Assembly: GCF_001278945.1 (NCBI RefSeq)
Contig: NZ_LGRV01000003.1
Coordinates: 124,001-188,000, forward strand
Direction: 5' to 3'
Source of the DNA: Lysinibacillus contaminans
Lineage (GTDB): Bacteria > Bacillota > Bacilli > Bacillales_A > Planococcaceae
Length of the DNA stretch: 64,000 bases
The translations under genes and the position numbers were made by a program. Positions 60,374-63,157 of this stretch are shown piece after piece. The notes beneath the pieces are model-generated. The model saw only the letters and a list, made by a program, of their open reading frames with translations. It searched no databases and had not been told where the DNA came from. Numbering within the stretch: the stretch's first letter is position 1; each line of letters begins with the position of its first letter.

Positions 60374-60660
60374 TAGATTTCCCCGTATGCTAAATAAGGG
60401 AAGAAGCCTTCGAAAAACCAATCAGTTGCTGGTATGAAGTAAGAGCCGTAGTGGAAATCTAGATCCAGCGTTGTAATAATCCATTTACCACTAGTGGAGT
60501 GTGTATCTATGTACATGACTACACCGCCATTTTCTGTTGAGATTAAAACTTCAGCATGCTCAGGTGGCCAAAAAACACCAAAGCGTGATGGCTACGTACC
60601 CCAAGCACAAAAAAATGGTGTTTGGTTTTTAAATTGAGGAACTTGTTGTGATGAGGCCGT
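60374..60660 (-). pseudogene. decayed C-terminal gene fragment with an in-frame TAG
   Basis: The minus strand keeps an open frame of ~95 codons ending at TAA 60406/60374-region (…FFPYLAYGEI-stop). It is broken by one TAG near 60592-60594 between ...CAWGT and PSRFGVFWPPEHAEVL. Downstream of the TAG the frame reads STENGGVVMYIDTHSTSGKW and TTLDLDFHYGSYFIPATDWF, which look like real protein (strand-turn pattern, aromatic-rich). No start codon with an RBS lies upstream and more stops occur beyond 60690. The family is not recognised; I read it as a gene remnant. Confidence 0.5.
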
Positions 60661-60817
60661 ATTTTCCTCAGTTAAAAGTTATCCTGTATGTTATTTATAG
60701 CGGAGTATAGCCAACTGTGCGGCACGTAGTAAATCAATAGAACACGAGATAGATGTCGCAATTCTACACCATAATTGGATTAGTTCTGTTTTGTCAAATT
60801 GTAAACAAAAAAGAACT

Positions 60818-60825
60818 AGCGTTAG
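60818..60825. repeat. left copy of 8-bp target-site duplication
   Basis: AGCGTTAG immediately before the left terminal inverted repeat; identical to 61081-61088. Confidence 0.7.
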
Positions 60826-61080
60826 AAGGGCACTGAAAAACTCTAAACTAAGATTATTTTATAGTAATTTTTCATAGGGTATTATTTTACTATGCAAGGA
60901 TTTTGCGCGGCAGCGTGAGACTCCAGCAGGAACAGCACAAGACGTAAGACGCAACAAACCGCGCGTAGCGAGGGTTGCGGCTTACGCTGTGCCTGCGGAA
61001 AGCGAATGCTAGAGCGCAAAATCCTTTAGGTCCTATTTTTATTAGAGAATTTATTAAAAAAACATTTTTTCCGTGCCCTC
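60826..61080. mobile_element. 255-bp MITE-like element
   Basis: The left end AAGGGCACTGAAAAA (60826-60840) and right end TTTTTCCGTGCCCTC (61066-61080) are inverted copies (13 of 15 positions). They are bordered by the perfect 8-bp direct repeat AGCGTTAG, the footprint of transposition. No transposase is encoded; inside lies a 131-bp palindromic unit. It is best read as a non-autonomous element mobilised by an insertion sequence with GGGCACTGAAAAA-type ends elsewhere in the genome (inference). Confidence 0.65.
60896..61026. repeat. 131-bp long-palindrome repeat inside the MITE-like element
   Basis: AAGGATTTTGCGC (60896-60908) and GCGCAAAATCCTT (61014-61026) are perfect 13-bp inverted ends. 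The interior also folds on itself, for example GTAAGACGCAAC with GTTGCGGCTTAC and AGCACA with TGTGCC. The GC-rich body with GAGACTCCAGCAGGAACAGC and CCTGCGGAAAGCGAA resembles a hairpin repeat dispersed in many Bacillaceae genomes. Confidence 0.75.
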
Positions 61081-61088
61081 AGCGTTAG
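61081..61088. repeat. right copy of 8-bp target-site duplication
   Basis: AGCGTTAG immediately after the right terminal inverted repeat; identical to 60818-60825. Confidence 0.7.
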
Positions 61089-61105
61089 CTAGCTCCTTTT
61101 TACAA

Positions 61106-63157
61106 TTACAACCTGAATTGATGTATTACTTCTTCCAGTTCTACTGCCATTTTCGCTAATTCTTTAGCTGCATATGATACGTCTTCCATGGATGCGCTCA
61201 TTTCTTCAGAAGATGCAGCAACATTTTGAGAATGGTCATTCACACTTAGAGAAGTTCGAGACACATGCTCAATTTGATTGACCACCTCTGAAATACGATG
61301 TTTCATATTAGTTATGGCTGAACCAACCTCATTAATATTCGTTGAAACAGTTAAAACGGAGTCTTTGATTTCGTTAAAGGCTCTTCCGCTTTGATTCACA
61401 AGTTTCAAACCTTCCTTTGTTGAATTCGATCCCTGTGCTACAAGGTCCATGGAATCTTGAATACCAACTTTAATATCCATAACAATTTCACTTATTTGTA
61501 GTGCCGAATGGCTTGATTGTTCCGCAAGTTTACGAACTTCATCTGCTACAACAGCGAAGCCTCTACCGTGATCGCCAGCTCTTGCAGCTTCAATTGCAGC
61601 ATTCAATGCTAGTAAATTTGTTTGTTCGGAAATTGATTGTATCATCAAACTAATTTGACTTACTTCATTCGATTTTTCATGTAATTCGCCGATTTTTTCA
61701 GCAGAAGAGGTAACGTTTCTATCAATCTCATCCATTTGTTTAACAGTTTGATTGACAACTTCACTACCTTGTTTAGCTGTTTCAGCTGAAAGATCAATCG
61801 AATTACTTACATCATTCATGCTACCAGTAACGTCTTCTACATGCTTGGAAACTTCATTTATTATTCCTACAGCATGCTCCATAGCCATATTCTGTTCATC
61901 GGTCCCTGCAGCAACACTTTGAATAGATTCTGATATTTGAGTTGATGCTTTTTGGTTCTCTATTGCACCAGCAGCTAGTTCTTCAGATGTCGCTGATAAT
62001 TGTTGAGAGCCATCTGAGATTTTTGTAATGACTTCTTTCAAACTCTCAGCCATAATGTTGTAATTTTTACCCATATCTCCAATTTCATCGTTGGCTTTGA
62101 TGAAAATGCGTTGTGTTAAATCGCCTGTAGACATGGCTAAAGATATGTCACTCACTTTTTTGATGTTTCCAGTTATACGAGAGCTCATTACAAACGAAAC
62201 TAACACCGCAAGACCTGCAAAAATGGCGCCTAAGAAAATGATGATTTTCCCTATGTAATCCCCAGTAGCAGCAAGCTCATTTTGTTCAATAACAGCGATG
62301 TACTTCATACCTTCATTGTTAGAACTTACTACGTTTAATAAGAAGTCTTTCCCATCAATTTTTGCTTCAACTGTCCCATCTTTTTCTAAATTCTTTAAAG
62401 CAGGTACGTCTAATTTAGAGACTTTTTCAAAATTTAGTTTAGGATTAGCAGGGTTTGCTAATATCGTGCCATCGTTTTGTACTAAAATTACATAGCCATT
62501 TTTTCCGATTGTTATATCATTAATAATAGTAGTTAATCCGTCTAGACTAACATCGATACCTAGTGCACCTATTGGCGTTCCATCTTGTTCAATAGTCACT
62601 ACATTACTTACGATAACCCCATCAATTCCAGTTGCAGCATAGGCACTCGTTACTTTTACTTTTCCTGGATTTTCTAAAGCTGTCGTATACCAAGGACGAT
62701 CAGTTGGGTTGAAATTAGGGATAGTAGGACCTTCAGGATATTGAACATATCCACCATCAGCAGTACCCATGTAAACATAGGCTGCATCAGGATGTGTTTT
62801 CCCGAATTGTGCAAATACGTCATAGATGGCTTTCTCTTTTGCCCCATTTTTTGACGGTGTCATTTCTAGTAAATTACTATCTGTAATATCTACATAAGAT
62901 GTAATGCTATTATCGGCATTCACTATAGATGGGTTGGTAGCTAACAACATCGCATTTTCTCTAATTGATTGGAAGAAGATTGAAAGTGCATTGTCAACTT
63001 GCTTAATTTCTCGTTCACTAAATTTAATATAATCTTCCTCTGTTGATTCACTAACCTCAGCATTAACAAACAGTCCAATTAAGGTCATTGGTAATAATGA
63101 AAGAAGTAATGAATAAATTAATAGCTTTGCTTTAAATGAAAATCTACCTTTACTCAC
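61106..63157 (-). CDS. methyl-accepting chemotaxis protein, dCache sensor type
   Basis: A 683-aa chemoreceptor: TM1 (~10-30), a large extracytoplasmic dCache domain (~38-290) with [20 protein letters not shown] and [20 protein letters not shown] (the W-Y ligand-site region). TM2 (~300-325), HAMP (~326-380) and a cytoplasmic signalling coiled coil with the tip [20 protein letters not shown] follow. The Cache motif is like amino-acid/amine receptors, but no ligand can be named. Start GTG 63157 with GAGGTGG RBS. It lies 58 bp downstream of, and probably in one transcript with, the nitrilase-fold gene. Confidence 0.93.

Follow-up and report, generated by a model that had tools for sequence, protein, structure and literature searches.

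The 3' end of a minus-strand chemoreceptor gene in the window (the whole stretch of 64,000 nt that was analysed) is followed by a terminator hairpin split by a 255-bp element (Table 1). The sequence-only reading had proposed a MITE-like element with 15-bp terminal inverted repeats and a perfect 8-bp duplication, and we re-derived both its coordinates (60826-61080) and its ends (AAGGGCACTGAAAAA and GAGGGCACGGAAAAA, which agree at 13 of 15 positions). There is no ORF of at least 80 aa inside. The 131-bp inner palindrome of that reading exists as well, at 60896-61026, but it is imperfect: its 52-nt arms, with 27 nt between them, are 71% complementary. Rfam gave one match, S. aureus tsr24, whose 23.8 bits are below the gathering score of 50. 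The stretch 60383-60580, which lies between the element and the argF-like gene, has matches of up to 82% at other places in several genus genomes and may be a gene remnant.

What did the site look like before the insertion? When the flanks are joined and one copy of the duplication is dropped, the minus strand reads GTAAAAAGGAGCTAGC-taac-GCTAGTTCTTTTTTGT, a hairpin of 16 pairs (two of them G-U) with a 4-nt loop that sits directly past the stop codon of the chemoreceptor gene. Of 21,267 window positions, 25 equal or beat its score of 31.2, and the 57-nt sequence formed by joining the flanks has a folding energy of -23.5 kcal/mol. The claim that removal of the element restores the terminator of the chemoreceptor gene is thus borne out.

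Table 1. Features of the element, its target and the neighbouring chemoreceptor gene
Feature	Position	Strand	Description
MITE without transposase gene	60826..61080	.	255 bp; ends, duplication, repeated copies
Left terminal repeat AAGGGCACTGAAAAA	60826..60840	+	14/15 bases identical to the resident 1687-bp IS end
Right terminal repeat GAGGGCACGGAAAAA	61066..61080	-	14/15 bases identical to the resident 1687-bp IS end
Target duplication AGCGTTAG, left copy	60818..60825	.	8 bp, perfect
Target duplication AGCGTTAG, right copy	61081..61088	.	8 bp, perfect
Imperfect inner palindrome	60896..61026	.	Has in its middle a REP-like repeat that also occurs by itself in other genus genomes
Split terminator, 3' arm and T-run	60807..60820	-	Hairpin of the joined flanks
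Split terminator, 5' arm	61088..61101	-	Hairpin of the joined flanks
Chemoreceptor gene, terminator split	61106..63157	-	Methyl-accepting chemotaxis protein; MCPsignal, dCache_1, HAMP

Parentage and mobility of the element

In the same genome (G000), the 255-bp element has 25 matches, full or partial. A scan of it with the end sequences revealed four end pairs 1685 bp apart, which delimit four copies of a 1687-bp IS with zero differences among them. Since these copies are identical, their movement was probably recent. The transposase of this IS has 490 aa and scores 366.5 bits with NF033551, against a curated IS1182 cut-off of 270. The 255-bp element has ends in common with this autonomous IS, lacks a transposase gene and is found at multiple sites, and its duplication of 8 bp is of the size class of the full-length relatives. 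These properties point to a MITE of an IS1182-family clade, and we propose a transposase of this clade as its mover.

The mobility claimed by the sequence-only reading is supported by the four identical full-length copies, by many diverged short copies and by uninterrupted sites for three full-length insertions. The latter were identified at L126 (in G005; 5 of 5 aligned relatives, with 93% identity over 260 nt in G001), L113 (7 of 7) and L112 (3 of 3), while at L119 a hairpin whose sequence has diverged is present in 4 of 4; these ratios cover the relatives picked for alignment, a subset of the genomes searched. The L112 insertion is one of the four identical full copies (C1:1596808-1598494) and interrupts a gene for a LysE-type exporter that is whole in three relatives. 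Its site is only a weak palindrome within a gene, which counts against targeting. The search for empty sites was successful for these full-length insertions but not for the window copy, for which three queries, the chemoreceptor gene's end (31 genomes including its own), the left flank (32 genomes) and the joined flanks (32 genomes), found none; this, too, counts against our reading. Among the 31 other genus genomes searched, the gene's end had its sole match in G006, which has a close relative of the gene (71%), and there the DNA past the gene differs.

Which member of the clade was the mover? It could have been, instead of the resident 1687-bp IS, a relative of a 1680-bp type found in G007, now absent here. 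The sub-terminal bases of other MITE copies (CTC..., GTGGTT...) are closer to this G007 relative than to the resident IS, and several MITE copies of this genome lie in the type of REP-like repeat that the G007 element favours. Against this, the 15-bp ends are common to all types and the right sub-terminal bases of the window copy itself have diverged. We regard a mover of the G007 type as a tentative option, somewhat short of an even chance. Full-length elements of 1.87 kb in Lysinibacillus xylanilyticus contain a core with 97% identity over 84 bp to that of the MITE copy at C1:1506815.

Some observations concern the individual copies. The 1680-bp relative has twelve copies in G007, most of them at one point of another REP-like repeat (loci L117, L124, L129, L136, L138-L144). 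Their common insertion point is GATCAGCGTC or similar, usually with a 10-bp duplication, and this type looks specialised in its target. At C1:1668335-1668704 of the own genome, two MITE copies (L003, L007) form a composite inside a REP-like repeat, probably because they are nested or have recombined.

Insertion at the centre of hairpins

To describe the targets of the clade we used its full-length elements, found in 10 of 32 genus genomes and, at E 1e-180 and with at most six candidates scored per genome, in 38 of 261 genomes of the order, from which four partial matches were left out. Named genomes were a third source and contributed the best 80 of 223 relatives. Among the resulting 173 loci (93 + 80), 150 had acceptable ends and 23 did not; after setting aside 28 in which no clean duplication reached 8 bp, together with 23 repeat sites, 99 distinct insertions were left. 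Duplications of 8, 9 and 10 bp occur in 53, 42 and 4 of them, respectively.

These insertions are concentrated at hairpins. With both strands scored, 66 of the 99 have a hairpin that scores at least 20 and whose axis is within 2 nt of the duplication centre, versus 244 of 21,267 window positions. This is our main figure; a scoring on one strand, which counted G-T pairs in one orientation only, gave 57 of 99 versus 81 of 8,640 positions in the flanks and 21 of 1,460 immediately 3' of genes. The axis lies at the very centre of the duplication in 52 sites, at +1 in 16, at -1 in 10, at +2 in 6 and at -2 in 3, and offsets of 3 to 6 nt have 0 or 1 site each (counted in half-nt windows, neighbours of which overlap). 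Many of the targets resemble terminators: among the 57 strong sites of the one-strand scoring, 49 carry a T-run, which in 30 of them is present on both strands. Judged by eye, a plasmid-borne copy from Priestia megaterium also lies at the centre of such a hairpin. The negative control was IS256, for which 22 of 28 matches were used, from two genomes of the same genus; after dropping the 5 of these 22 without duplication, 0 of 17 insertions score 20 or more and 1 of 17 scores 16 or more.

Hence, the preference for terminator hairpins that had been suspected from the window copy is upheld by these counts: the preference for hairpins is real and general. It is not absolute, and the suggestion that the copies of the ends would lie in hairpins with a duplication holds in part. 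At 33 of the 99 full-length insertions no hairpin reaches a score of 20, some of these insertions being in REP-like repeats, and this counts against targeting. Four MITE copies of the own genome have a clean duplication, the others having none. Two of these four are hairpin-centred, the window copy (31.2) and C1:1966441 (23.4), and two are not, C1:1506815 (7.6) and C1:1540484 (8.8), which also counts against it.

We conclude, with a probability of about 0.85, that the 255-bp MITE belongs with an IS1182-family clade whose transposase targets the centre of the dyad in intrinsic terminators and, more rarely, in other palindromic repeats. Could the same pattern arise without any targeting? Insertions might be random and survive only in harmless places such as terminators, which are non-coding, and the full-length elements supply terminator-like hairpins of their own (see below). 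However, survival does not account for insertions that all but coincide (to 1-2 nt) with the axes of hairpins unrelated to one another, and it leaves unexplained both the parity effect described below and the absence of hairpin-centred insertions in IS256 of the same genus. Because of the axis precision and the IS256 control we reject this explanation as very improbable. Terminators apparently offer a landing place where few genes are harmed.

Target readout and the fate of termination

The geometry of the insertions is informative about how the target is cut. Whether the hairpin axis is even or odd is reflected in the length of the duplication: of the 8-bp duplications, 31 are on even and 10 on odd axes, and of the 9-bp ones, 6 are on even and 19 on odd axes (Fisher p 8e-5). 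Loops are 3 to 12 nt long, and the length of the duplication does not track theirs. We dropped the idea that the duplication is simply the loop, as the two are equal and centred in only 5 of 57 strong sites. Since the duplication tracks the parity of the axis and not the loop, both cuts are symmetric about the dyad, and we infer that each cut is measured from its own arm. In the mechanism we propose, the transposase of the clade would steer insertion to the dyad centre of a terminator hairpin and cut on each side of the axis at an equal distance of about 4 to 4.5 nt, which would lead to duplication of the central 8-9 bp, i.e., the loop and the closing pairs. Both hairpin arms would stay intact and flank the inserted element.

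This raises the question of what the transposase recognises. An alternative to the reading of a folded hairpin is that each subunit reads a double-stranded half-site, with an A-tract 12-17 nt and C-rich DNA 6-10 nt from the centre, and that terminators are hit for offering two such half-sites in inverted orientation. A-tracts on both sides are present in 33 of 51 strong targets versus 65 of 293 control terminators, and the C fraction at 6-10 nt is 0.47 in targets versus 0.24 in control terminators. Direct reading suggests that the element ends are similarly laid out, with an A or T run some 11-15 nt inwards and, close to the edge, GGG or CCC. Of 21 targets that have weak hairpins and are not in REP-like repeats, 9 also have both tracts, which argues against pure hairpin recognition. 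On the other hand, A-tracts are missing from REP-like and similar palindromic targets (e.g., L176, L177, L290, L297), which argues against pure half-site recognition, and no strong base consensus lies within 8 nt of the duplication. Half-site readout is a serious contender, although we would not quite back it at even odds. We lean slightly toward a symmetric recognition of the arms over the alternatives.

What happens to transcription when a terminator is split? Full-length elements may bring a solution with them. Among 80 distinct full-length elements, a terminator-like hairpin is predicted at the 5' end, facing incoming transcripts, in 69, for the outgoing transposase transcript in 64 and for antisense transcripts in 70; inside the transposase gene, taken for comparison, it is found in 1 of 80. 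Since such hairpins are predicted just inside both ends, an element that breaks a host terminator probably supplies the replacement, and a transcript deprived of the host terminator would probably stop within the element. The MITE has no such hairpins. The sequence-only reading had seen in the window copy a possible mobile terminator, and this part of it is not supported: on both strands of 60700-61250 there is no terminator-like site (a hairpin followed by a T-run), inside the element or beside it, and none scores 20 or more in the window MITE.

The split terminator of the chemoreceptor gene could still work over a long range, if a large hairpin, formed by the entire element in the nascent transcript, rejoined the old arms. 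In folding predictions of the interrupted transcript these arms pair in both the minimum-energy and the centroid structure, the whole stretch has a z-score of -6.75 versus shuffles, and the T-run and both arms are undamaged. But about 270 nt separate the arms, the last 60 nt fold locally at merely -4.5 kcal/mol, and 60700-61250 is devoid of terminator-like sites, while a weak one for the chemoreceptor strand lies further on, at 60358-60336. We consider long-range termination unlikely, though not far-fetched.

Dyad-centred targeting could be part of a broader habit. In such a scenario, a widespread terminator-homing clade would swap terminators: it would read the shape of an extruded hairpin or cruciform, cut evenly on both sides of the dyad, with the parity of the axis setting the length of the duplication, and insulate host genes with its own terminators at both ends, its MITEs targeting alike but bringing no replacements. 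We put this forward tentatively, as slightly less probable than its opposite.

Relation to known systems

The targeting of hairpins and terminators by IS1182 elements is already known from passages of PMC4923244 and PMC5678879. According to these, IS1272 and TnSha1 (IS1182 family) have as targets terminators and other hairpins without common sequence, and IS1272 removes the stem-loop wholly or partly and makes no target duplication. The present clade resembles them in its IS1182-family transposase and in its hairpin targets, and differs from IS1272, as described there, in that both arms are kept and a central duplication of 8-9 bp is made among the 99 retained insertions. A stem-loop deletion of the IS1272 type, without duplication, does not describe these 99; among the 150 elements with acceptable ends, 28 lacked a clean duplication. 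The model in PMC5678879 includes loop duplication as one hypothetical pathway, which is related, but here the duplicated size is fixed and does not equal the loop. Passages of both papers also quote Siguier et al. 2015 for IS1182 members said to target palindromes, and some of these may behave like the present clade.

Among the open-access titles and abstracts searched we found no description of dyad-centred insertion with duplication for IS1182 elements, which may be covered in ISfinder, TnPedia or subscription papers. The central duplication with both arms kept appears to be a new variant of hairpin targeting by this family. The transposases of the present clade are about 21-22% identical to plasmid ISEfa7 transposases. 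Group IIC introns are retro-elements that prefer intrinsic terminators and insert beside the stem. They share the terminator preference with the present clade and differ from it in having neither inverted ends nor a target duplication.

The clade bears on how a transposase can select its target by shape instead of sequence, for which IS1272 has been a puzzle case within the IS1182 family. It adds insertion at the dyad with duplication, arms that are kept, terminator-like hairpins that are usually the element's own, and MITE offspring. It offers many natural insertions in which the cut is marked by a duplication, so that the geometry (the dyad centre, and 8 or 9 bp by parity) can be read directly, and it makes shape and half-site readout testable on simple target plasmids. 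It also suggests a route by which a mobile element could become nearly harmless, by landing in terminators and supplying the replacement.

Insertion sequences in REP palindromes are the subject of PMC1525189. The likeness is that extragenic palindromes are hit, and part of the present copies are also in REP-like repeats; the difference is that the target described there is a repeated sequence family, whereas the present clade is mostly in unrelated terminators. REP-like DNA is also part of the MITE itself. The middle of its core (60913-61006) has matches at E 1e-15 in at least 7 other genomes, of 32 genus genomes, with at least 45 matches in G040 and at least 44 in G038. These repeats (L240, L241, L248, L254, L260, L266) often stand in rows, about 210-270 bp apart. 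At one locus of the own genome (L009), the REP-like core is found alone, between GTAAAAATCCGC and GCGGATTTTTAC.
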